From the NCBI GenBank assembly GCA_009779195.1, contig WRET01000004.1:25468-89467 (forward strand): a stretch of DNA of 64,000 bases, in the 5' to 3' direction. Below the pieces are notes generated by a model. It was not told the origin of the DNA and made no database searches. It was given only the letters and a program-made list of their open reading frames with translations. The translations under genes were made by a program, and so were the position numbers. Below are positions 3,172-64,000 of this stretch, one piece after another (the stretch's first letter is position 1; each line of letters begins with the position of its first letter). This DNA comes from Micrococcales bacterium (GTDB lineage: Bacteria; Actinomycetota; Actinomycetes; Actinomycetales; Cellulomonadaceae).

Positions 3172-3555
3172 GTGCCTACCGGCAAGGTCAAGTGGTTCGA
3201 CGCTGAGCGTGGCTTCGGTTTTATCTCCGGCGACGATGGCGGTGAGGTGTTTCTGCACGCCTCGGCCATGCCCGCGGGCACCGCAGCACCACGCCCGGGC
3301 ACCCGGGTGGACTTTGGTGTTGCTGACGGCAAACGTGGTCCGCAGGCACTGTCGGTCAAGATCCTCGACCCCATGCCGTCGGTCGTGAAGGCCAAACGCC
3401 GCCCGGCCGAACAGATGGCGGTCGTCGTCGAAGACCTCATCAAAGTGCTCGACCGTATTGGCAACGACCTGCGCCGCGGGCGCTATCCGGACAAGAACCG
3501 GGCCACCCAGGCCGCACAGCTGCTCCGCGGCGTCGCCGACGACATCGAGGCGTGA
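3172..3555 (+). CDS. Cold-shock protein with C-terminal extension
   Basis: MPTGKVKWFDAERGFGFISGDDGGEVFLHASAM: canonical CSD (KVKWF, GFGFI). Confidence 0.95.
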   Translation: MPTGKVKWFDAERGFGFISGDDGGEVFLHASAMPAGTAAPRPGTRVDFGVADGKRGPQALSVKILDPMPSVVKAKRRPAEQMAVVVEDLIKVLDRIGNDLRRGRYPDKNRATQAAQLLRGVADDIEA

Positions 3556-3557
3556 GG

Positions 3558-4760
3558 ATGACCAAAGACGCTGTGCTCGACCGGGCGGTCGACCTGGCCC
3601 GTGCCGCCGCGCAGGAGATTGCCGAGGACCCGGCCGACGTCGGCGAGCACCTCGGTGCGACCCTGGAAGCAGAACGCCTGGTCACCCACCGTTTTGAGTG
3701 CACCACCCGCGGGTACCAGGGCTGGCACTGGGCAGTGGCTGTCGCCCGGGTGCCTCGTGGGCGGGCCGTCAGCGTGTGCGAGGCGGTGCTGCTGCCCGGT
3801 GACGGTGCCTTGCTCGCCCGTCCGTGGGTGCCGTGGTCCGAACGTCTGCGTCCAGGTGACCTGGGTGTCGGTGACGTCTTGCCGTTCCGCCATGACGACC
3901 CACGTCTGGAACCTGGGTGGCGCCCGTCCGGCGACCCCGACGCGGACGACGCCGCGCTCGTGCCCGTCGAAGAGCTCGCCCTGGCCCGCGAACGGGTCCT
4001 GGCCCCCCTGGGCCGCAACGAGACCGCCGCCCGCTGGTACCGCGGCACCCACGGCCCGACCTCCGCTGGCGCCCTCGCGGCCACCGCAGCCTGCGCCACC
4101 TGCGGTTTCCTCGTCCCGATCCGCGGAGCCCTCGGCCAGGTCTTCGGTGTGTGCGCCAACGAGTGGTCCCCCGACGACGGCACTGTGGTGTCCACCGACC
4201 ACGGCTGCGGCGCCCACTCCCAGACCGACGCCGACCCTGAACCGTCCCACTGGCCTGCTCCTGACCCCCTCATCGACGACGGCCGTATCGAGGCGCTCAC
4301 TCTCGACCGACGCCAAGACGCCGATGGCAGCGACGCACCCACCGCAGAGGCGACCGACGACGCGGAGAACCCGCGCGCCACGGCACCTGCCGAGCCAGTC
4401 GGCGTCGTCGAGGCTGGACCGTCTCACGAGGCTGCCGCAGGACAACCCAGCGCCACGGCTGGTGAGCCGGTCGAGATGGTTGAGGCTGGACCCGCTGACG
4501 GTGCAGACGAGGTTCCGGCGCAACGCCCGGGTGCTACGGCAGTCACCGAGCCGATCGCGGTCGTCGACCTGGCCGAGGCCAGCGCGTCCGACGAGCCAGC
4601 TCCGTGCGACGCGGTCGAGCCTGCCGACGAGCCGACGAGCGAGGTCCCAACCGACGCGACCGACGACGCGACCGAGGTCCCCGCTGAGCCGGACGAGCCG
4701 GCTGGTCGTGCGTCTGGTGAGGTCGAGGCGTCGCCGGAGCCTGGCCCGTCCGAGGGATGA
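3558..4760 (+). CDS. DUF3027 domain-containing protein with acidic/Pro/Ala-rich C-terminal tail
   Basis: Follows cspA-like gene; 'FECTTRGYQGWHWAVAVARVPRGRAVSVCEAVLLPGDGALLAPPWVPW'-type DUF3027 signature; long low-complexity tail. Confidence 0.8.
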   Translation: MTKDAVLDRAVDLARAAAQEIAEDPADVGEHLGATLEAERLVTHRFECTTRGYQGWHWAVAVARVPRGRAVSVCEAVLLPGDGALLARPWVPWSERLRPGDLGVGDVLPFRHDDPRLEPGWRPSGDPDADDAALVPVEELALARERVLAPLGRNETAARWYRGTHGPTSAGALAATAACATCGFLVPIRGALGQVFGVCANEWSPDDGTVVSTDHGCGAHSQTDADPEPSHWPAPDPLIDDGRIEALTLDRRQDADGSDAPTAEATDDAENPRATAPAEPVGVVEAGPSHEAAAGQPSATAGEPVEMVEAGPADGADEVPAQRPGATAVTEPIAVVDLAEASASDEPAPCDAVEPADEPTSEVPTDATDDATEVPAEPDEPAGRASGEVEASPEPGPSEG

Positions 4761-7700
4761 TCGGTCCGCTGGGGGACAGTACCGACCCGTTCGGCACCGC
4801 CGGCCTGCGCGAGGCGGTGCTCACAGCCTGGCGTGCCTCGCCGGCGCGTTTCCGCGAAGACGCCAACACCGAAGAAGACCACGCCCGCACGTACTACCGC
4901 GACCGCGTCCTGGTCGACCTGGCCCAGAACGCCGCAGACGCCGCAGTCCGCAGCGGCACCCCCGGCCGTCTCCTCATCCGGCTAGAAACCGACGGTGACG
5001 CTGCCCGCCTTGTCGTGGCGAACACCGGTACCCCTCTCGACGGTCCTGGGGTCGCCTCCCTCGCCTCCATGCGCGCCTCGGCCAAACGCGCTCCCCACAC
5101 CAGCCGACCACCTACCGATGCGCAGACCACCCCAGACGACCGCGGCATACGTGGGTCCGAAGCGCTGCCGCCCCTTGGTGGCACTGGTGAGCCCCAGCCC
5201 TCCCGTCCTGCGCACCAGCCGCAGGACCTGAGGACCCAGCCGCAGCAGGTCGTGGGTCGGTTCGGGGTCGGTTTTGCCGCGGTCCGGTCCGTCGCCGACG
5301 AGATCGAGGTGCGTTCCACCACCGGCACGGTCCGCTTCGGCTTGGCCCAGACCCGTGCCCTGCTCGCCGACGACGGTGCGCTGGCCGACGAGGTTGCCCG
5401 CCGCGGCGACGCCCTGCCCGTCTTGCGCCTGCCCCTGCCCGGCCCTGCCGACCCCTGGCCTGGTTACGACACCGCTGTTGTTGCCCACCTGCGCGACGAC
5501 GAGGCGCTCGCAGCAGTCCGCGCCCAGCTCGCCGAGGTCGGCGACCCCATGCTCCTGGCCCTGCCCGGCCTGGCCGAGATCGTCGTCGAAACCCCCGAAG
5601 GCTCCCGCCGTGTCGCCGACGTCGCCGACCGCTGGCAGGTCCGCACCGCCACCGGCACCCACGAGGCCCACCTCCTGGCCGACCGTCCTGTCGAAGAGCG
5701 TGACCACCACCACTGGCAGGTGACCTGGGCATTGCCGCGGCACAGGCAAGAAGCCGGGCCGACGGTGGTGCACGCCCCCACCCCCACCGACGACCTGTGC
5801 ACCCTGCCCGCCCTGCTCATCGCGACGTTCCCCCTGGACCCCACCCGTCGCCGGGTGCAGCAGAACCCGGTCACCGACGCCCTCGTCACTGCCGCTGGTG
5901 ACACCTACGCCGCCCTGGCCACCGACCTGGTGGCCACCGGTGTGGACGTCTCCACGCTCGTGCCCACCATGTTGCCCGCCGGTGAGCTGGACGGCCGCCT
6001 CCACCAAGCCGTCGTCGAGGCCCTGCGGCACGTCCCGGTCCTGCGCGGCCCCACCGACATGCTCGTCCCGGCCGACGCCGTGGCCCTCGCCGCGCCCGCC
6101 GGCCACGACCGCCCGCTGGTCGCCGCCCTGGCCCGCCGCATCCCCGCCCTCGTGGAGCTGCCCGCCAACCCCGCCGCGTTACGCGTCCTCGGTGTTGCTG
6201 TGCGTCCCCTCGCCGATATCGTCGAAGCCCTTCCCGGTGCGAACAACGACGCGTCGTGCGAGCTGGTGGGTTCGCACGACGCGTCGTTGTTCGCACCGGA
6301 CGGCTGGACCGACCTGTACGACGCCCTGGCCTCCGTCGTGCCCGAGCAGGCAGAGGCCCTGGCCCATCTGCCCGTGCCGTTGGTCGACGGCCGTGTCGTC
6401 CGTGGTCCTCGCGGCACGGTGGTCCTCGACGGCCCCCTCCACACCAGCCTCACCCCCCGCGCCCTGGCCGCACTGACCCGCTGGGGGCTGCGTATCGTCC
6501 ACCCCCACGCCGCCCACGGGCTCTGGGAACGTCTCGGCGCCGCCCGCTGTGACGCCCTCGCTCTCTTGTCGTACGCCCAGGTCCGTACAGCCATCTGTGA
6601 CCTCCAAGACGAACCACCCCCGTGCGACGTGCCCGCCGGGACCGACGACGACGGTGGCCGCCCACGCCACGGTGACTGCCTGTCTTCCTATGCCTCAGCC
6701 TCAGAGCCCGAGCCTGAGCCGGCTGGACCGGTCCACCCGCCGTCGGAGGGTGTCGATGACGCCGCTGGGGTGGTCGTGGTGGCCAGCGGGGACACGCCCG
6801 TCCTGGGGGAGGTGGCGGCCGTGGTGGCTGAGCTCGTCGCCTTGGCCCTGCCCGTGCCAGAGCAGCTGGCCCCGACCCTGGGCCTCGTCGAGCTCCCCGC
6901 CGCAGATGGCGACCTCGTCCCCGCGCACGGCCTGGTCCTGCCCGGTTCGCCCGCACAGCACCTCTTCGACGACCGTGTCTTGACCACTGTGGCGCCCGCG
7001 GTGGTCGACCTCCTCGGCGAACCCGTCCTGCGCGCCCTGGGTGTGCGTGTCGGTCCTGTCCTGGTGCACGTCAGCGACGTCGTCGCTGATCCGCACGGCG
7101 CCGACGACGTCGATGTCGACGCCTGGCCCGACTACCTGGCCTGGCTCGGCGACCGTCTGGGCCCCGGTGCCTGGGTCGGTGACCTCGTCGCCGTCGCTGA
7201 CCTCGACGCTGTCGCCGACGACGCCTGGTCCACCTTCCTGGCCACGCTGGCCTGCGACCGTGACCTGCGCGGAGCCCTCGTCAACCCCGTGAGAACCCCT
7301 CAGGGCGCGTTTTCGTCCTACACAGCCTGGTGGCTCACCCACCGCGCCGACCTCGGTCTTGGCACCCCCTTCGCCATCGACGACGTCCCCACCTGGCTCG
7401 TCGGCTGGCTGCCCCGGGTTCCTGCGGTCCTGGCTGACACCGATGACGAGATCCGCCGCGCCCTGGGCGCAGTCAGCGCCGCCACCACCCTCGATCTGCC
7501 CACCTGGGCGAAGATCGGTTCTACCATCGCCCCGGGCACCCTGGTCGACCTGCCCGTCGCCGTGCAGGTCTGGCGTGCCCTGGCTGCCGTCCCCACCCAA
7601 GCCCCCACGCGGCCAGAGGTCTTCGAGGGGGTTCACGACCTGGACGCCTGGGTTGTGCCCGCCCTCGTCGCCCCCGCACGCGCCGAGATGGTCCGGCCAG

Positions 7701-50467: not shown

Positions 50468-51580
50468 TCAGGTGAGGACGACGCAGACGACTTCGCTGTT
50501 GCTGGCGATCCGCAGAGGAATTCCCCAGGTGCCAGCACCAGAGGTCACGATGACCTGGGGGCTGGATCCGTCCTTGCGGTAGTACCCGTAGTCGACGGCG
50601 TAGATGGCGCGTGTGATGAGGTTGGCCGGGAACATCTGTCCCCGGTGGGTGTGGCCTGCGAGGATGAGGTCGGTCTCGGCGCCGTACTCGTCGATGGTCC
50701 CCGGGTTGTGGTCCATGACGACGACGGGCCTGGTGCCGATGGTGGCCATCAGCTGTGCGGTGTCAGTCCTCTTCAGGTCACCGGTGGTGCTGATCGGCGA
50801 ACAGTCCAGCCGCCCGACCAGGGTGATACCGCCAACAGCCTCGTACTCGTCCTTCAGGACCCGTACCCCGCTGCGTTCCAAGAGGCTGACCATCTCGTCG
50901 AATCCGTGTCGAGCGCTGTCGTGGTTCCCCAGGCAGGCGTACACGTGAGCGCACCTGATGCTCTCCAGCGTCTGTTGCGCCGAGCCAGGCACCAGCTGGT
51001 AGTCGTCGTTGAAGATGTCACCGACCAGGCACACGAGGTCAGCGTCCACAGCGTTGACCTCGGCGACGACCTTCGCGAAGTTCCGCCCGGAGCCGACCGA
51101 CCCGAGGTGCAGGTCGCTGACCACGACGATCGTCATACCCGACACCCCTGGGAGCCGGACGTCGTAGGACACGTGCACGATACGCCTGGCGTTGTACAGC
51201 CCATACCCGACCACACCAGCAGCCAACAGGACAACAACCAGCCCCTCACCGAACCGCACGCCTGTCGTCGGTTCCACCTTCACGACCCGTCCGACCGCTA
51301 GCACCAGGTCCGCGACGAAAAAGAACATGAGCAGGTAGACAAAGAGCCCAGTCCAGTGCCCGCCTATCCAGCTGGCCACCTTCCTGGCCCGAACCGGCAG
51401 CGGCGCGTACCCGACCAGCAGCGACACCGCCAACCCCACGTACACGACCGCAAACACCACACCGTTGGTCGGCAAGAAGATGTCCGACCACTGGAACAGC
51501 CTCGTCGCGACATAAAAGTTCGTCCCCCCATAAACCCCCAGCATGACCCCCGCCCCGAAAACGATACCCACCGTCCGCAC
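50468..51580 (-). CDS. Membrane-anchored metallophosphoesterase (copy A; start uncertain)
   Basis: 'VVSDLHLGSVGSGRNFAKVV', 'CLVGDIFNDDY', 'CLGNHDSARHG', 'ILAGHTHRGQMFP', 'VTSGAGTWGIPLRIASNSEVV'; TM N-terminus. Confidence 0.88.
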   Translation of the reverse strand: MRTVGIVFGAGVMLGVYGGTNFYVATRLFQWSDIFLPTNGVVFAVVYVGLAVSLLVGYAPLPVRARKVASWIGGHWTGLFVYLLMFFFVADLVLAVGRVVKVEPTTGVRFGEGLVVVLLAAGVVGYGLYNARRIVHVSYDVRLPGVSGMTIVVVSDLHLGSVGSGRNFAKVVAEVNAVDADLVCLVGDIFNDDYQLVPGSAQQTLESIRCAHVYACLGNHDSARHGFDEMVSLLERSGVRVLKDEYEAVGGITLVGRLDCSPISTTGDLKRTDTAQLMATIGTRPVVVMDHNPGTIDEYGAETDLILAGHTHRGQMFPANLITRAIYAVDYGYYRKDGSSPQVIVTSGAGTWGIPLRIASNSEVVCVVLT

Positions 51581-51630
51581 GACTGCTCCCTCGCTTCCCG
51601 CGGCGACAACAGACCTCAGCCGTTCGTCCG

Positions 51631-52037
51631 CGGAGCCGTCCTGGCCGTCGTCGCGCAGGAACCAGCGTACGACCGGTGCAGGCCCAGGGCTGACGTCGGC
51701 GACCCACGCTGCCTTGTCGGCGGTGACGGTGGTGGCTACCTGCGCACGGCGACCCAGTCTGGAGCCAGTACGTCCCGCACGTGCCTGGACGTCAAGGTCC
51801 CACACCCCACCCACCAGTTGAGATGCGACCGTCTCGTCCTGCGCTCTGGCAGCGCAAGACCATCCCTCGAACGGGTGAGTTCTGTCCCAGTATGTCTGTA
51901 GTTCTCCCGAATGCCCCATATCTGTGACAGATCACCCATAAGGTGGTCCCGGAGCGCCGGTGGGTGCCGGCCCGAGGGGATGCACGACTCAAGGAGGGGT
52001 CTTCATGCCGTACCCAAGAACGTGGTGGTTGGTCGCC
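51631..52037. repeat. Direct duplicated segment, copy A (pairs with 53896-54266)
   Basis: Long diverged duplication incl. 'gtgcctggacgtcaaggtcccacacccc', 'ccctcgaacgggtga', 'tgtgacagatcacccataaggtggt', 'atgccgtacccaagaacgtgg'. Confidence 0.85.
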
Positions 52038-53895: not shown

Positions 53896-54266
53896 CGGAG
53901 CCGCCGTCGTGGCCGTCGTCGCGCAGGAACCAGCGTACGGCCGGTGCCGAGGTGCACGAGGTGACCCGGGTCTGCGGCCAGTGTGTCCCCGCACCCGTGC
54001 CTGGACGTCAAGGTCCCACACCCCGCCCGCCCACAGTTGGGGCGTGCCTGTCTCGTCCCGTGCTGGACGACTCTGGTAGCGCAGGCCCATCCCTCGAACG
54101 GGTGACTTCTGTCCTGGTATGTCCGCAGTTCTCACGAATGCCTCACATTTGTGACAGATCACCCATAAGGTGGTTGCGGGGCGCCGGTGGGTGCCGGCCC
54201 CAGGGGAGATGTACGACTCGAGGAGGGTTCTTCATGCCGTACCCAAGAACGTGGCGGTTGGTCGTG
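53896..54266. repeat. Direct duplicated segment, copy B (pairs with 51631-52037)
   Basis: See copy A. Confidence 0.85.
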
Positions 54267-55742
54267 CCTGTTGCGGCCGCCTTGCTCGTGGTCGGCTGTA
54301 CCAGTGGTGCTAGCCCGGAGCCGACCGCCACTGTTGCCCTTGGTGACGCCGCCGAACCCGTGTGGGTCGTACGGGTCGAAGCGATGAGCCAGCCGCACGT
54401 CAAGGACGGTGTTGCGGTCGCCTACCTGGCCGTGCCCAACGGCGAACCTGCCGACCCCGACGCTCTCGTCGGCCACAAGGATCTGGCAGTCGTCGCCTGG
54501 GACGCCGAGAGCGGTGCAGAGCTGTGGCGGCACGATGCTGTCCCGGGTCACATCACCGGATCTGGCAAAGACTACGGTTACGCCCCGTTAATCGACATCA
54601 CCGAGCTCGACGGCTCACAGGTCGTGGACTACCTCGTGCCTGATCCGGACTCCGATGGCACATTGGTGGCGATCGCCGACCTGCGCAGCGGCAAGGAGAC
54701 CCGGTACGGCCCTACGGTGTGGGCGACCAGCCGCCCGTACAGCTGCGACTCTGACCCCTGGCGCGGGGTTTGCCTGACCGGCACGTTCGCAGGAGAGGCC
54801 GACGCCCACGAGATTGAGCTCGATCTGACGTCGGCGGCGCTGGTCGCGGTTCCCGACCTGACACCGGCCAATCCTGTGCCCGACGGTGCTGAACAGCTGG
54901 GCGCTGGTCTCTTCTTCGCCGACGGCCAGCTGGGGTACGCCGACGACCTCGACGAGGTCAGGTGGACCCGCCCGTACGAGGACGTGCTCGGGCCCGGGTC
55001 GAGTCCCCAAGGCATCACCGGCTGGGTGGACCGGCACGACGGCCTGCTCGTCGGTCTTGGCTCGGTGTCGACCGAGATCGCCGGGGAGTACGACGCGTCC
55101 ACCGTGATGCGGACAGTCGTGCTGTCGGCCGAGACTGGCGAGACGGTGGCGTCGGTCCCAGGGATGCCGTGCTCCGGGCGCTGGTCGTATTCGGACGTTG
55201 CTCTCACAGTGTGCGTGGAGACGGGCACCGTGACCTTCCCCGGGGATGGGTCGAGAAAGCTGACGTACACCGACCACCAGCGCTACGTAGTCGGCATCGA
55301 CATGAAGACGGGGGAGCAGAAGTGGCGTCTGCCAGCCCAGGGCGCAGAGCCAGTGACCGATGACAGCTCATTCGTCTCGGACTACCCGTATGTCCACAAC
55401 GGCTCGTACCTCGTCATGGGCTGGTCCGCGCAGCTGCGGGTTGTGGACACCCTGACCGGTGCGGTGTCCGACCTCCCCAGCGACGCAGTGTTCTTGTGCT
55501 GGTCGCCATGGGACCGTGCCTACAGCACGTCGCTGGTTGTCGGCGGTGCTGACAGCGTGTCGCTGGAGTTCGAGCGCAGTGTGGTCGAGGTTTGCGACGT
55601 CGACGGGATGCCCACCGAATCACCGTGGCCGGGGTACTTTGTCAGGGCCGCCTTTTTTAGTGACAGGGATTTTGACGGCCGAGATGATGACGGCTTGTAC
55701 ATCGTCGCCGGACCCGGGCAGGTCGCCGCCTTCCGCCTGTAA
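54234..55742 (+). CDS. PQQ/beta-propeller-like lipoprotein (paralog 1)
   Basis: ATG 54234; MPYPRTWRLVVPVAAALLVVGCTSGA lipobox; 'GIDMKTGEQKWRLPAQG'. Confidence 0.8.
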   Translation: MPYPRTWRLVVPVAAALLVVGCTSGASPEPTATVALGDAAEPVWVVRVEAMSQPHVKDGVAVAYLAVPNGEPADPDALVGHKDLAVVAWDAESGAELWRHDAVPGHITGSGKDYGYAPLIDITELDGSQVVDYLVPDPDSDGTLVAIADLRSGKETRYGPTVWATSRPYSCDSDPWRGVCLTGTFAGEADAHEIELDLTSAALVAVPDLTPANPVPDGAEQLGAGLFFADGQLGYADDLDEVRWTRPYEDVLGPGSSPQGITGWVDRHDGLLVGLGSVSTEIAGEYDASTVMRTVVLSAETGETVASVPGMPCSGRWSYSDVALTVCVETGTVTFPGDGSRKLTYTDHQRYVVGIDMKTGEQKWRLPAQGAEPVTDDSSFVSDYPYVHNGSYLVMGWSAQLRVVDTLTGAVSDLPSDAVFLCWSPWDRAYSTSLVVGGADSVSLEFERSVVEVCDVDGMPTESPWPGYFVRAAFFSDRDFDGRDDDGLYIVAGPGQVAAFRL

Positions 55743-55760
55743 CGCACAAGGAGAATAACG

Positions 55761-57116
55761 ATGCTGCGCAAGAAAAGAACGTTGGTTTGTGTCGGCCTGC
55801 TCGCGAGCCTGGTCCTGGTGGGATGCACGAAGAGCAGCGATCCCCAACCGTCTGTTTCCGCTGGTGCACACGAGCTGGCAAACCCGGTGTGGTCGGTGCG
55901 TACCCAGGCGGTTGAGCAGCCCGAGCTGGTGGACGGGCTGCTGCTGGGAGAGGTGTTCGACCCAGACTCGCTGGTCGGTGCGTCGGTGGTCGTCTGGGAC
56001 GATTCTGGCAAGCAGTTGTGGAGCCACGACGGCAGAGCGCACGTGGCCTTCGATATCGGCTCAGCCATGAAGGTGGGTTATCTCGTGTACCGCTCGGAAA
56101 CGTGGTCGGTGGCCGTGGCGGACCTGCGCACCGGTACTGAGTCGCTGGTAGCGATGCCCGGAGGCCGACGGGCTGACGGACTGCAGAAGTGCGACGAGAG
56201 CGTGTGCGTCGACACCTGGCACGAGGAGTACTCAGAGTGGTCGCGGCTGGACACCGCGTCGATGACACTGGTCTCCACCGGGTGGCCCTCCACCTATGAC
56301 TATCCAGATGGGATCGCGCTGGAATCCGGCTCCGTCAGTTATGAAGGTGATAGCCGAGTTGGCGCCTGGGTCCGTCCCTACGCCGAGATGTTCGAGACGG
56401 AATCCACGTGGTTCTCTGTCAGGCACGTGTCGGTTCTGTTGGCATGGTACGGCGACCGGGAGGTGCTGCTCGGGACCACGTCGGCTGTGCCGCTTGATCT
56501 TGAGTTCGACCGCAGCCATGAATACGCGACCGCAGGTTTTGCGCCTGACGGCACCACCGTGTGGAAAACCTATGGCCGTCCTTGTTCTGCAGGCGAGGGG
56601 GGCTGGACCAGTGGTGGCATCCAGGTCTTGTGCGTCAGCACCGGAACCACGACGTACACCACCACCACCCAGCCGGGGTCGATGCACATCGAGCCGACGA
56701 CCGACGACAACGGGAACTACTGGGTCGGCATCGACGTGCGCACCGGGGAGCAAAAGTGGCGGTTCCCGCAGGAAGGTACGCTTGCCACTCCGACGAACCC
56801 CACGCAGTACGCACCGGTCGTTGACGACGGCTATGTCCTGGCTGCGGCTGACGACGGCAACTTCCTGGTGGACGTCACCACCGGAAACGCTGAACCTCTC
56901 GACCCCGACGGTGCGTTCCTGTGCCCCCAGTTCGTGCGACAGACCAGCCCCGAGGCAGGGACGGTCTTCCGCAACGTCCGCCGCGTCTGCAATGTCGACG
57001 GCAACCCCGTCGTCGCATCCTGGAACGCCGCCTGGGTCCGCCTCACCGGTGTCACCGACGGCAAGGGCAGGTACTACGTTGCGACCGCCAGCCAGCTGGT
57101 CGCCTTCGACCTGTGA
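55761..57116 (+). CDS. PQQ/beta-propeller-like lipoprotein (paralog 2)
   Basis: MLRKKRTLVCVGLLASLVLVGCTKSSD lipobox; 'GIDVRTGEQKWRFPQEGT' parallels paralog 1. Confidence 0.82.
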   Translation: MLRKKRTLVCVGLLASLVLVGCTKSSDPQPSVSAGAHELANPVWSVRTQAVEQPELVDGLLLGEVFDPDSLVGASVVVWDDSGKQLWSHDGRAHVAFDIGSAMKVGYLVYRSETWSVAVADLRTGTESLVAMPGGRRADGLQKCDESVCVDTWHEEYSEWSRLDTASMTLVSTGWPSTYDYPDGIALESGSVSYEGDSRVGAWVRPYAEMFETESTWFSVRHVSVLLAWYGDREVLLGTTSAVPLDLEFDRSHEYATAGFAPDGTTVWKTYGRPCSAGEGGWTSGGIQVLCVSTGTTTYTTTTQPGSMHIEPTTDDNGNYWVGIDVRTGEQKWRFPQEGTLATPTNPTQYAPVVDDGYVLAAADDGNFLVDVTTGNAEPLDPDGAFLCPQFVRQTSPEAGTVFRNVRRVCNVDGNPVVASWNAAWVRLTGVTDGKGRYYVATASQLVAFDL

Positions 57117-57202
57117 GTGACGCGGAGACCAGCATGAGCGCTGGTCTGGCGGCTGATGTGCAACCCTTGCGGCGTTTTACCGTACAGCACTATCCTCGTG
57201 GT

Positions 57203-57469
57203 ATGGCAGAGAAGACGGCACGGCTGGACCTGCGTATGTCGCCAGAGCACAAGCGCCTGCTGGAGCAGGCTGCGCGGCTGACGGGTTCGACTGTTGCCGG
57301 GTACGCGGTGGCGCACCTGGTCGAGGCGGCTTCGACGACGGTGGCCAGGTCGCAGACCATGACCCTCGACGCCGCGTCGTGGGACGTGTTCGTCGCCGCC
57401 CTCGACGCACCAGACGACGAAGCCTTCGCAGCTGTGCGCACGATGATCCCCGTGTGGGACAGGACGTGA
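57203..57469 (+). CDS. DUF1778 (TacA-like) RHH antitoxin
   Basis: 'TARLDLRMSPEHKRLLEQAARLTGSTVAGYAVAHLVEAA'; 4-bp overlap with GNAT toxin. Confidence 0.9.
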   Translation: MAEKTARLDLRMSPEHKRLLEQAARLTGSTVAGYAVAHLVEAASTTVARSQTMTLDAASWDVFVAALDAPDDEAFAAVRTMIPVWDRT

Positions 57470-57945
57470 GGCTCACCCCGCCACGGCCGATCGCCCCTAC
57501 CGATGACCTGACCCGTTTCGTGTGCGGCCAAGCAACGCTCGACACGTGGCTGCGCGACCACGCCCTGCGCGCTGAGAAAGAACGCACAGCCCGCACCTAC
57601 GTCGTCTTCGACGCTGAAGCCGCGCTGCTCGCTGGTTTCTACTGCCTGGCGTCGTACTCGGTCGAGCGTGCCACGATCGGCGGTGGCGCTCTTGCCCGCA
57701 ACACCCCACGGCGGGTCCCCGTGGTTCTGCTCGGACGCCTCGCTGTGCACACCGACTACCAGGGTTACGGCCTCGGTGCGTCGATGCTCCACGACGCGAT
57801 CGTCCGCGCGACCGACGTCTGCGACCGAATCGGCTCGCGAGCCCTGGTCGCCGACGCCATCGACGACCAGGCAGCCGCCTTCTACCAGCACCACGGTTTC
57901 CGCCCTTTCCCCGCCGACCCCCTCGTTCTCTTCCACCGCCTGTGA
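57466..57945 (+). CDS. GNAT (TacT-like) toxin
   Basis: 'FVCGQATLDTWLRDHALRAEKERTARTYVVFD...LGRLAVHTDYQGYGLGASMLHDAI...GSRALVADAIDDQAAAFYQHHGFRPFP'. Confidence 0.9.
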   Translation: MRLTPPRPIAPTDDLTRFVCGQATLDTWLRDHALRAEKERTARTYVVFDAEAALLAGFYCLASYSVERATIGGGALARNTPRRVPVVLLGRLAVHTDYQGYGLGASMLHDAIVRATDVCDRIGSRALVADAIDDQAAAFYQHHGFRPFPADPLVLFHRL

Positions 57946-58160: not shown

Positions 58161-59090
58161 GTGGGCGTGACGGCTCTCGACGGTGTGTCTGCCACGTTCG
58201 ACCCAGCGCGGTGGCGGGAGGTGGACGGGTTCGACGACCTCACCGACACCACTTACCACCGGGGGTGCGCCGACGGGCAGGACCTGCCGGTCGTGCGGGT
58301 GGCGTTCGACCGGCCGCTGGTGCGTAACGCGTTCCGCCCGCACACGGTTGACGAGCTGTACCGGGTGCTCGACCACGCCCGGCAGACCACCGCGGTGGGA
58401 ACGGTGCTGCTCACCGGCAACGGGCCGTCGCCCAAGGACGGTGGGTGGGCGTTCTGCTCAGGCGGGGACCAGCGCATCCGCGGACGCGACGGTTACAAGT
58501 ACGGTGACGACGACGGGCACGTAGACGCCGGGCGCGCCGGGCGCCTGCACATCTTGGAGGTCCAACGTCTGGTGCGGACCATGCCGAAAGTCGTCGTCGC
58601 CCTGGTCAACGGGTGGGCGGCCGGGGGAGGGCACTCGTTGCACGTCGTGGCCGACCTGACGATCGCCTCGCGCCAGCACGCCCGGTTCATGCAGACCGAC
58701 GCGAACGTCGGGTCGTTCGACGCCGGGTACGGCTCTGCGCTGCTCGCCCGGCAGGTCGGGCAAAAACGCGCACGGGAGATCTTCTTCCTCGCCCGCGAGT
58801 ATTCTGCCGAGCAGGCGTACGCCTGGGGTGCGGTCAACGACGTTGTCGACCACGACGACCTGGAGGCGGCCGGGTGCGAATACGCGCGCATCATCGCCAC
58901 CAAATCACCGCAAGCGGTCCGGATGCTGAAGTTCGCCCTCAACGCCGCTGACGACGGTATTGCTGGCCTGCAGGTGTTCGCCGGGGAGGCGACGCGCCTG
59001 GCGTACACCACAGACGAAGCCGTCGAAGGCCGTGACGCCTTCTTGGAACGTCGCGACCCGGACTGGTCGTCGTTCGGATGGGCTTATTGA
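58161..59090 (+). CDS. menB: 1,4-dihydroxy-2-naphthoyl-CoA synthase
   Basis: 'VAFDRPLVRNAFRPHTVDELYRVLDHARQ', 'FCSGGDQRIRGRDGY', 'TDANVGSFDAGYGSALLARQVGQKRAREIFFLAR'. Confidence 0.95.
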   Translation: MGVTALDGVSATFDPARWREVDGFDDLTDTTYHRGCADGQDLPVVRVAFDRPLVRNAFRPHTVDELYRVLDHARQTTAVGTVLLTGNGPSPKDGGWAFCSGGDQRIRGRDGYKYGDDDGHVDAGRAGRLHILEVQRLVRTMPKVVVALVNGWAAGGGHSLHVVADLTIASRQHARFMQTDANVGSFDAGYGSALLARQVGQKRAREIFFLAREYSAEQAYAWGAVNDVVDHDDLEAAGCEYARIIATKSPQAVRMLKFALNAADDGIAGLQVFAGEATRLAYTTDEAVEGRDAFLERRDPDWSSFGWAY

Positions 59091-59092
59091 TG

Positions 59093-60226
59093 ATGAGAAT
59101 CATGTGGATTCCGGCTATGCTTTTCAGTGCGATGGTGGCGCTGTGGATAGTCGTCGGTGTGAACGTCTATGTCGCAGCGAGGGTGTACCAGTGGCTCCGC
59201 CTGGTGTTCTCGAAGCTGAGGCTGAAGGTCTTCGTGGTGGCGTACGCATGTGTCGCGGTCATCATGATCGTCAGCTTCCTGCCGTTGCGCGCCACGCTCG
59301 GGTGGATAGGCGGCGTCGGGACAGGCCTTTTCTTGTACCTGCTCATGATGATCGTCGTGGTGGACCTGGTCGTGCTGGTCGGACGGCTGGTTCGGCTCGT
59401 CCCCAAACCCGTCCCGGCCGCTGTGCGTCTCGCGTCAGGGCTGGTCGCAGCGGTGACGGCGCTGAGCCTGGTCGGATATGGCCTGTACAACGTGCACCAG
59501 GTCCACCACGTCGCCTACGACGTGACCATCGACGACGCAGAATTTGCTGGAATGCGGATCGTTATGATCAGCGACCTGCACCTGGGCGCCGCGGGCTCAG
59601 AAGCGAACCTGGCCCGTGTCGTCACCGAGGTCAATGCCGCCAAACCCGACCTGGTCTGCATCGTCGGTGACACGTTCAACGATTCCTACAACGACATCAA
59701 AGACCCCGGCCGTGCGATCGAGCTGTTCGCCTCTATCAACTCGACGTACGGCACGTACGCGAGCCTGGGCAACCATGACGCCGGGCCGACACTCGACAAG
59801 ATGATCGGCCTGCTCGACAAAGCCGGTGTGGTCCTGCTCACCGAAGAGCACGTCGTCATCGACGACCGTCTCGTCCTCGTCGGCCGGGCTGACAGGTCCT
59901 GGGCTGACGCCCCCGACCGCAAACCCACGAGCACAGTCCTCGCTGGCCTCGACCCCGCCCTGCCCGTCGTCGTCATGGACCACAACCCGTCGAACATCAC
60001 CGACTACGACACGAGCGTCGACCTCATCGTGTGCGGCCACACCCACCGCGGCCAGTTTTTCCCTGTGAACATCATGACGATGCTTTCCTACCCCATCGAC
60101 TATGGCCACCGGACCCGGGCCCCCCAAGTCATCGTCACTTCCGGCGCCGGCACCTGGGGAATCCCCCTGCGCATCGGCAGCAACAGCGAAGTCGTCACCA
60201 TCAACGTCCACGGCACTGGACACTAG
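59093..60226 (+). CDS. Membrane-anchored metallophosphoesterase (copy B)
   Basis: 'MISDLHLGAAGSEANLARVV', 'CIVGDTFNDSYNDI', 'SLGNHDAGPTL', 'VMDHNPSNI', 'IVCGHTHRGQFFP', 'VTSGAGTWGIPLRIGSNSEVV'; paralog of 50468-51580. Confidence 0.9.
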   Translation: MRIMWIPAMLFSAMVALWIVVGVNVYVAARVYQWLRLVFSKLRLKVFVVAYACVAVIMIVSFLPLRATLGWIGGVGTGLFLYLLMMIVVVDLVVLVGRLVRLVPKPVPAAVRLASGLVAAVTALSLVGYGLYNVHQVHHVAYDVTIDDAEFAGMRIVMISDLHLGAAGSEANLARVVTEVNAAKPDLVCIVGDTFNDSYNDIKDPGRAIELFASINSTYGTYASLGNHDAGPTLDKMIGLLDKAGVVLLTEEHVVIDDRLVLVGRADRSWADAPDRKPTSTVLAGLDPALPVVVMDHNPSNITDYDTSVDLIVCGHTHRGQFFPVNIMTMLSYPIDYGHRTRAPQVIVTSGAGTWGIPLRIGSNSEVVTINVHGTGH

Positions 60227-60259: not shown

Positions 60260-61639
60260 TCAGCGGTTCAGGACGGCATCGATCACGAGCCTTGCCATCG
60301 GCTCGAGGTTCTCGCTCGTCGGGTCCTCTAGGTCGTCGCCGTTCTTGACGAACACCACCACTGCCACCTGCGGGTTGTTGGCCGGGGCAAACCCGGTGAA
60401 CCACATGTAGGGGGACCTGTTCCCGTAAGTGACAATACCGGTGATGGCAGCCAGGGGCACTGCGTCGGCCTGCGCCGTACCGCCGCTGCTCGCGGTCGCC
60501 TCCATCATCTGCGTGAGCTGGCGGGCAGTGCCTTCCGAGACCGGCTGGCCGAACCTGTCGGACCTGGTCGTGGTGATCACCGACTGGTCTGGCCCTCGGA
60601 CCGTCTCGGCGAGGTACGGGCGCATCATGACACCGTCGTTGGCGATCGCCGCTGAGACCATCGCCATCTGCAGCGGGGTGGCCTGGACACCTTGCCCGGT
60701 CGCGAAATGGGCCATCGCAGCGGCGCGGGGCACTGGGGGGAAAGTGCTGTCCAGCGCAGGCATGGGGATGTGCACCTGCTGGTCGAATCCGAACGCCTCG
60801 GCCTGGTGGCGCACAGCATCCTCGCCCAGGTCCATGCCGAGCTGGGCGAACGCGGTGGTGCACGAGATCTTCAGGGAGTCCGCCAAGGAGATCTGGTCTG
60901 ACGTCGGGTCGCACGCCGCCCCGCTGGGGTTCTTCATTGTCGCCACGGTCTGCGGCAGGTCCAGCACCTGCGGGCCGTACAGCAGCGTCTCAGGCGAGTA
61001 CTCCCCAGACTCCAACGCCGCTGCAGCGGTGATGACGGTGAACGTCGACCCTGGGTAGTACCGCTCGGCGTACGCCTTGTTCCGCAACGGGTTGCCCGGG
61101 GCTCCGGTCAGCGTCGTGTGTGCCGCGACAGCCGCGTCGACGTCATGGCTGGCCAGCGGGTTCGGGTCGAACCCGGGGGTGGACACCAGAGCCAGGATCC
61201 TGCCTGTGGACGGTTCGATGGCGACGATCGCACCTTCGAGGTAGTGCTCGCCATCGCCGCCGGGCAGGCACTCGGGGGTGGCACCGTCGCACCGCAGGGC
61301 GGCCATCGCCGCCTCCTGGGCGCTCGGGATGATCGTGGTCTCCACGAACCCAACCCCATCCTGCTTGTAGAAGTGTATCTCCAGGCCAGAACCCTCCCGG
61401 AGCCCGAGGAACCCGGTCACTGAGGAGTACAGGACCGCCCCGGCTGGGTCGCCGCCTGAGTACACGCGCTGGTAGCCCGCCGAGTCCGGGAGGGGGACCG
61501 ACTCAACGACGACGGACCCGCCCGCGACGATCACGGGAGCGCTCGTGGAGGCATCCTGGGTGCCTCCGGGCGTGCAGCTGACGACGAGCAACGAGCCAGC
61601 GAGAGCGACCACCAGAGGCCACAAGGCGGGCTTTGTCAT
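60260..61639 (-). CDS. Penicillin-binding-protein-like lipoprotein with substituted catalytic motifs
   Basis: ATG 61639; lipobox LLVVSC; transpeptidase fold 'ERYYPGSTFTVITAAAALE', 'SLKISCTTAFAQLGMDLG', 'IPLAAITGIVTYGN'-type positions. Confidence 0.88.
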   Translation of the reverse strand: MTKPALWPLVVALAGSLLVVSCTPGGTQDASTSAPVIVAGGSVVVESVPLPDSAGYQRVYSGGDPAGAVLYSSVTGFLGLREGSGLEIHFYKQDGVGFVETTIIPSAQEAAMAALRCDGATPECLPGGDGEHYLEGAIVAIEPSTGRILALVSTPGFDPNPLASHDVDAAVAAHTTLTGAPGNPLRNKAYAERYYPGSTFTVITAAAALESGEYSPETLLYGPQVLDLPQTVATMKNPSGAACDPTSDQISLADSLKISCTTAFAQLGMDLGEDAVRHQAEAFGFDQQVHIPMPALDSTFPPVPRAAAMAHFATGQGVQATPLQMAMVSAAIANDGVMMRPYLAETVRGPDQSVITTTRSDRFGQPVSEGTARQLTQMMEATASSGGTAQADAVPLAAITGIVTYGNRSPYMWFTGFAPANNPQVAVVVFVKNGDDLEDPTSENLEPMARLVIDAVLNR

Positions 61640-61954
61640 GCCGGGCTCCTTCAGGGCTCGCTGATGCACAAACCGGGACAACCGGGGTGCCCACCGTACC
61701 TCTGGCCGTGCCGGGAGTGTTCCGCGACCACCCCGGTGAGCCGGACGGACCTCGTCGACCCCGACGGCGCACGGTAGCCGAGAAGAATCTCGCCCTGCAT
61801 CTGGCCTCTTGGCGCGTTGGCAGCTCGGTACTGTTCGGTATCTCGGCGACAATCCAGCCGAGGATGGCGACCGCTTCGTCGCCGAGGTGCGAGAGTTGGC
61901 GCCACCGCGACGGGGCGGACGAGGCTGCTTCGCATGTGCTCACCGACGAGTGGA

Positions 61955-62701: not shown

Positions 62702-62720
62702 GGTCCCCAAGGTGGGGACC
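62702..62720 (+). terminator. Hairpin GGTCCCCA-AGG-TGGGGACC just after the hypothetical gene
   Basis: Perfect 8-bp stem, 3-nt loop, 6 bp after stop; no U-tract, so only a candidate. Confidence 0.35.
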
Positions 62721-62878
62721 TGACGGCCCCGATCCCGAGCTCGCCCTGGCTGCGGCCCTGCGCCGGGGTTCGACTCGGCCCGCCTCGTGGTGCCCCGTCG
62801 CGCCGGACCCCGCTGCGACGCGTGGATGCCCCGCGCCAAGACCCGCCGCGTCGGCCCCCTCGCGCCACCGGGTGACCT
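62712..62878 (+). pseudogene. Decayed 3' fragment of the downstream toxin gene
   Basis: 62714-62764 vs 63937-63987: 50/51 identical; in the toxin frame reads GPDGPDPELALAAALRR...RVT*; no intact 5' part. Confidence 0.7.
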
Positions 62879-63395: not shown

Positions 63396-64000
63396 GTGCG
63401 GCCAGGGGGAAGGTTCCCACACGACCAGGCGGAGATCGTCTTTTCTGACGCGTTCGTCGACCAGCTCGAAGACCTCAGCTCTGTCGAACGCGAACAGGTG
63501 CTGGTCGCCGTTGTCGCCCTGTGCGCCGACCCGGGCGGAAAGCATACGCTCAGCGCCCGGCGCGGCAGCCGTGCTCTGGTCGGCTGCAACACTGTGGCGG
63601 TCCTGGGTGGCACCCATCGTGTCGTCTACCACGTGGACGAACCTGGCGCGTCGGTCCTCGTGCTCTGCATAGGTCCGCGCCGCGGGTCCGAGGTGTACGA
63701 CATCGCCACCGCTCTGGCCGCGACTGTCCTCACTGACGCCGAGGCCGCACAGATGTGGGTCGCGCTGGCGGTGCTCGACGTCCTGCCCGAGGCCGTCGGC
63801 ATGGACGGCTGGGACTACCGCCCACCACCGGCACCCGACGGGATGCGCAAGACAGCCGTCGCCGCTGGTCTGCTGCCGGCCGACCTCGTCGACCTGCTGT
63901 CGGCCGACGAGGTCGCTGCCGCCATGGCACAAGGCTGGGGACCTGACGGCCCCGATCCCGGGCTCGCCCTGGCTGCGGCCCTGCGCCGCGCCCGCGCCAA
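63396..64000 (+). CDS. RelE/ParE-like toxin with long C-terminal extension, 3' truncated by window edge
   Basis: GTG 63396 (not in the ORF track): FSDAFVDQLEDLSSVEREQVLVAVVALCADPGGKHTLSARRGSRALVGCNTVAVLGGTHRVVYHVDEPGASVLVLCIGPRRGSEVYDIA...; immediately downstream of antitoxin. Confidence 0.68.
   Translation, partial: MRPGGRFPHDQAEIVFSDAFVDQLEDLSSVEREQVLVAVVALCADPGGKHTLSARRGSRALVGCNTVAVLGGTHRVVYHVDEPGASVLVLCIGPRRGSEVYDIATALAATVLTDAEAAQMWVALAVLDVLPEAVGMDGWDYRPPPAPDGMRKTAVAAGLLPADLVDLLSADEVAAAMAQGWGPDGPDPGLALAAALRRARA

Follow-up and report, generated by a model that had tools for sequence, protein, structure and literature searches.

The window, by which we mean the whole 64,000-nucleotide stretch of DNA that was analysed, belongs to genome G000 (3.33 Mb in 125 contigs, 98% complete), in which we found nine matches to PF00905. 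One gene in the window, here called pbpA2, appears to encode a lipid-anchored relative of the penicillin-binding protein PbpA. The features of the locus are as follows.

60260..61639, minus strand: pbpA2, 459 aa, a lipid-anchored paralogue of PbpA in which the transpeptidase motifs are dead (ORF, Pfam, AlphaFold, Foldseek)
61646..61651, minus strand: ribosome-binding site AAGGAG, six bases upstream of the ATG (read directly)
61574..61639, minus strand: putative lipoprotein signal peptide and lipobox VVS-C22, residues 1-22, replacing the transmembrane anchor of PbpA (rule-based)
61241..61294, minus strand: two-cysteine loop, residues 116-133 (alignment with the genome's own PbpA and that of G082)
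61037..61048, minus strand: motif 1, S198-T-F-T201, STFK in the family (read from the ORF; comparator survey)
60857..60865, minus strand: motif 2, S259-C-T261, SCN in the family (read from the ORF; comparator survey)
60437..60445, minus strand: motif 3, I399-T-G401, KTG in the family, followed by I402-V403 for T-A (ORF and survey)

The pbpA2 ORF is intact, with an ATG start and a TGA stop. The N-terminus of its product, MTKPALWPLVVALAGSLLVVSC, fits the lipobox V-V-S-C22 by rule, in agreement with the initial annotation, which had proposed a lipid anchor instead of a transmembrane one, and the protein probably leaves the cytoplasm and receives its lipid on the outer surface of the membrane. Substitution of all three transpeptidase motifs, also claimed there, was confirmed, the residues of an active SxxK acyltransferase being replaced by STFT, SCT, and ITG. 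Ser198 (the nucleophile), Ser259, Thr400, and Gly401 are retained, while the family residues Lys201, Asn261, and Lys399 are lost, and T402 and A403 of the KTGTA motif have become isoleucine and valine. The transpeptidase domain itself is readily recognized (PF00905, E = 2.3e-50; 171.9 bits against a cut-off of 22.1), and the PbpA dimerisation domain gave a weak, partial match below the cut-off. A domain search of the ORF found no transmembrane/metalloprotease sensor part of the BlaR1/MecR1 type, and no transmembrane or cytoplasmic signalling part was found in pbpA2. None of the genes beside pbpA2 indicates a pathway, and none encodes a sigma factor, an anti-sigma factor, or a kinase. Two related metallophosphoesterase-type genes lie nearby (50468-51919, minus strand, and 59078-60226, plus strand), with a relative on contig C116 of the sister MAG G083, and a short repeat of 97% identity occurs near the contig end (~62708-62765 and 63930-63988), with a related stretch on contig C95.

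In enzymes of this type, the SxxK lysine acts as the general base for acylation, whilst the KTG lysine (the position of K399) and the residue at the position of T402 bind the carboxylate of the substrate, and without these two lysines acylation should fall by orders of magnitude. With no SxxK lysine and with the changes K399I and T402I, pbpA2 is therefore unlikely to function as a normal transpeptidase or to trap penicillin, and we infer from the mechanism that its product would be incapable of normal acyl transfer.

We obtained an AlphaFold model of the protein with a mean pLDDT of 88.7 and a pTM of 0.89, in which pLDDT falls below 50 only in the signal region and in one loop of four residues. 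The best PDB matches to the model in Foldseek are structures of Mycobacterium tuberculosis PbpA (3un7, 3upp, 3upo, and 3lo7), with TM scores of 0.81-0.85 (pbpA2 as query, full chains) at 36-37% sequence identity. Taken with the Pfam match, these values bear out the earlier statement that the fold around the motifs is well conserved. Outside that fold, alignment with PbpA reveals considerable loss: the transmembrane segment is replaced by the lipobox segment, deletions have removed some 20 residues from the pedestal, including the RGxI stretch, and some 20 from the head, and what is left at the RGxI positions reads R33S, G34A, and I36V with gaps, so that the anchor and pedestal of PbpA are missing. 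Every gap in the alignment is in frame, and there is no stop. In complexes of the RodA-PBP2 type, the transmembrane helix and the pedestal touch the SEDS polymerase, and by analogy pbpA2 would require them to make this kind of contact. Because both segments have been deleted, it is unlikely that pbpA2 serves as a classic SEDS-dependent scaffold.

A survey of PbpA genes from the genus and from other genera, which had been proposed as a check, yielded 55 rows corresponding to 53 distinct genes (two had been fetched twice). The catalytic residues, ST[FYG]K, SCN, and K[TS]G, are kept in 53/53, and pbpA2 is the sole deviant. Within the genus, of which 81 genomes were compared, a second copy resembling pbpA2 is confined to the source genome, with none in its 80 congeners; two PbpA matches were also seen in G094 (78% complete, 4% contamination), and both look ordinary. 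The dead state is thus seen in one genome alone, which counts against a functional reading. In another congener, G092 (99% complete), we observed no close PbpA match, just a distant PBP at 32% identity.

The source genome also encodes its own intact PbpA, with STFK, SCN, and KTG motifs, on contig C33, where it adjoins genes of the rodA/ftsW and pknB types. The C33 copy therefore holds the position of PbpA between rodA and pknB, and pbpA2 lies at a different locus. The two proteins are 64% identical over residues 98-459 and 57% identical over 450 aligned positions, and the genes are alike in GC3 (0.87 for pbpA2 and 0.88 for the own pbpA). With ~43% of positions differing, and with the catalytic residues present in every comparator, chance and sequencing error were rejected as causes of the motif loss. 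By raw identity (58.5%), pbpA2 is as close to the PbpA of the sister species G082 as to its own. In a tree of 37 proteins, however, pbpA2 and the own PbpA are sisters (support 99/89), with end branches of 0.86 and 0.24, respectively, that of pbpA2 being 3.6-fold longer. Moreover, both have a two-cysteine insertion that is absent from the G082 PbpA and constitutes a shared derived mark. The tree and the insertion together date the duplication to a time when the G082 lineage had already separated, rule out horizontal acquisition, and show pbpA2 to be an in-paralogue of the own PbpA that arose in the species' recent lineage. The own PbpA (L002, G000:C33:4815-5972) has an additional two-cysteine insertion ahead of its SxxK motif, which neither pbpA2 nor the G082 protein has.

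The neighbourhood of pbpA2 is found in part in related genomes. A 6.4-kb contig (C116) of G083, a 67% complete assembly, is 81% identical in DNA to the neighbourhood over 3.9 kb; the matched stretch, at 54234-57945 of the window, holds two tandem PQQ-type lipoproteins and a toxin-antitoxin-like DUF1778/GNAT pair. The end of C116 truncates a pbpA copy that lies on the opposite strand and has an intact KTG motif. The genes in between differ, with an SPFH-type gene in G083, and enoyl-CoA hydratase and metallophosphoesterase genes in the window. We found no match to the rodA-pbpA-pknB region in the 67% complete G083 assembly, and so the C116 copy may be either an orthologue of pbpA2 whose KTG is still intact, or the relocated only copy. 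If it is an orthologue, motif loss would be specific to the species of the window. G082 likewise retains parts of the neighbourhood, with no PBP in the matching region.

We then compared the pattern of change in pbpA2 with that in other PbpAs. At 72 near-invariant PbpA columns, pbpA2 is changed in 17, whereas seven other orthologues put through the same comparison have 0-5 changes; those of pbpA2 cluster at the anchor/RGxI segment, the head, and the three motifs, where they comprise K201T, N261T, I314T, G393A, K399I, T402I, and A403V. For a test specific to the pbpA2 branch, we scored changes on that branch at sites where the two closest PbpAs are identical. Away from the motifs, only 2/47 conserved sites of the transpeptidase domain are changed, compared with 49/165 variable ones, whilst 6/19 conserved sites in the neighbourhoods of the motifs are changed (Fisher p = 0.0055, a value that serves as a guide, as we chose both the cut-off for conservation and the extent of the motif neighbourhoods ourselves, at a single setting). 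Pairwise dN/dS (NG86) is 0.52 between pbpA2 and the own PbpA and 0.41 for the G000-G082 pair of PbpAs; maximum-likelihood dS was saturated, and our reading of dN/dS leans on NG86 and the conservation test. The fast branch and the value of 0.52 suggest that part of the divergence may reflect relaxed selection. As judged from where substitutions fall, the comparison shows that the transpeptidase fold has stayed under selection, and we consider it probable that pbpA2 is transpeptidase-dead but constrained. The initial annotation's description of the protein as a pseudoenzyme is thus supported by the loss of the motifs and by constraint on the rest of the fold.

Dead PBP domains of another kind occur in the same clade, next to sigma factors. 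On contig C58 of G000 (L120:1325-3444, minus strand), the gene after an ECF sigma gene encodes a transmembrane segment together with a transpeptidase domain of class A type, whose motifs are STFQ, SVN, and ATG. In G082 (contig C5, L136:1345-3549, minus strand), a single ORF of 735 aa combines an ECF sigma factor with a dead PBP domain (SAFQ, SVN, ATG), and in G083 (contig C310, L149) an ECF sigma gene adjoins the start of a PBP gene that is cut off by the contig end; a fumarase gene lies near the sigma/PBP genes on both C310 and C58. The dead domains of G000 and G082 share 71% identity across 413 residues (NG86 dN/dS 0.38), and on this comparison a sigma-linked, putatively inactive PBP is kept across species. 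Upstream of the three sigma genes (L120, L149, and L150) we noted a shared GGCAAC, ~16-17 bases before CGGTC/CGTG and just ahead of the start codon, which is possibly the sigma factor's own promoter. The C58 sigma gene also has a class A PBP duplicate upstream of it (L120:~3500-5634, minus strand; also L008), with TTG for KTG and a frame break in mid-gene. No direct link between the sigma-linked domains and pbpA2 was found, and no paper on an ECF sigma factor with a PBP domain emerged from our search of the open-access literature. Membership of pbpA2 itself in an ECF sigma regulon was considered and rejected, as no GGCAAC-type element was seen by eye in its 250-bp upstream region.

The reading that we favor, to which we give a probability of roughly one half, is that pbpA2 encodes a transpeptidase-dead, lipid-anchored PbpA fold that has been kept for a non-catalytic role, probably in binding or regulation. 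The housekeeping pbpA was duplicated in the species' recent lineage; the signal-anchor helix became a lipoprotein signal, with deletion of the pedestal/RGxI segment and part of the head; the catalytic Lys, Asn, and Lys were replaced while the transpeptidase fold was kept; and, on this reading, the product, with its PbpA-like surfaces, would work without catalysis as a binding protein. That it tunes wall elongation, by occupying or titrating a partner of PbpA or a site on peptidoglycan, is a more tentative proposal. Of the regulatory or scaffold role first suggested for the gene, the non-catalytic part stands as the best reading, and the SEDS-dependent scaffold does not. The main challenge is that pbpA2 may be an early pseudogene, that is, a redundant pbpA copy that has lost its active site and is decaying without function, its frame not yet broken. 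Its presence in one species, its long branch, and the frame break in another PBP duplicate of the genome (on C58) all accord with this, as does the pbpA copy with an intact KTG in the same neighbourhood of G083, which partly realizes the initial annotation's concern that intact orthologues would mark a decaying allele. Nor does the intact ORF say much by itself: neutral simulation at roughly similar divergence produced 2.9 stops on average, and 6% of the runs had none, which makes a stop-free frame weak evidence on its own. However, the changes avoid conserved positions of the fold and concentrate near the motifs, the lipobox and the ribosome-binding site are clean, and the deletions are in frame only. 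The sparing of the fold positions means that plain decay is not the best reading, and we regard it as unlikely, albeit with a realistic chance of being correct.

The sigma-linked domains lend some weight to the idea that pbpA2 is a non-catalytic sensor, whose dead PBP domain binds and reports a muropeptide or antibiotic, since both lysines have been lost recurrently and the serine kept. Yet pbpA2 has neither a signalling part, nor a sigma, anti-sigma, or kinase neighbour, nor the GGCAAC-type element upstream, and K399I and T402I would remove the carboxylate-binding groups, so that such a function seems improbable. The initial annotation had also raised a beta-lactam decoy that soaks up antibiotic. 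The conserved Ser198, Ser259, Thr400, and Gly401, as well as the surface exposure that a lipid anchor would give, would suit a decoy, but a decoy has to bind well, and with both lysines gone and the carboxylate contact removed by T402I we think it very unlikely. Equally hard to credit is an activity of an unusual kind or on another substrate, such as an esterase using Ser198 with another base: the serine and the surrounding fold are retained, but the active-site area is altered broadly, and towards hydrophobic residues, rather than by one compensating switch.

Kinases and cell-wall proteins of the LytM type include well-known pseudoenzymes; in the open-access literature, to which our search was confined (subscription papers lay outside it), we found nothing on a natural penicillin-binding pseudoenzyme. 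If our reading is true, a copy of PbpA that keeps the fold and lacks both catalysis and SEDS coupling would make it possible to test directly what the transpeptidase domain contributes apart from its chemistry. Dead PBP domains may be a recurring theme of the clade. A broader notion, which we hold to be doubtful, is that the clade has repeatedly turned PBP duplicates into lysine-less, serine-keeping envelope sensors or regulators, embracing both pbpA2 and the ECF-linked class A-type domains. The sigma-linked dead PBPs are the main reason for interest beyond a single odd gene and, if confirmed, would represent a new way of sensing the state of the cell wall.

Among known systems, pbpA2 is nearest to actinobacterial PbpA of the rodA-pbpA-pknB locus (M. 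tuberculosis 3lo7/3un7), with which it has fold, sequence, and phylogenetic origin in common, and from which it differs in its locus, in the absence of a transmembrane anchor and pedestal/RGxI segment, and in the substitution of SxxK, SxN, and KTG alike. PBP-lipo of M. abscessus (MAB_3167c) is, like pbpA2, a class B PBP with a lipoprotein-type signal, and requires its catalytic serine, as the S364A variant fails to rescue (PMC9170245). In contrast, pbpA2 derives from PbpA and has lost its catalytic lysines. Precedent for a non-catalytic role of a class B PBP, as proposed here, comes from Bacillus subtilis PBP2B, in which S309A supports division (PMC5656894), and from Clostridioides difficile SpoVD, in which S311A supports septation in part (PMC12713402). 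In both of these proteins the natural motifs are intact and action is through SEDS partners, whereas in pbpA2 the motifs have been lost naturally, together with the part that couples to SEDS.
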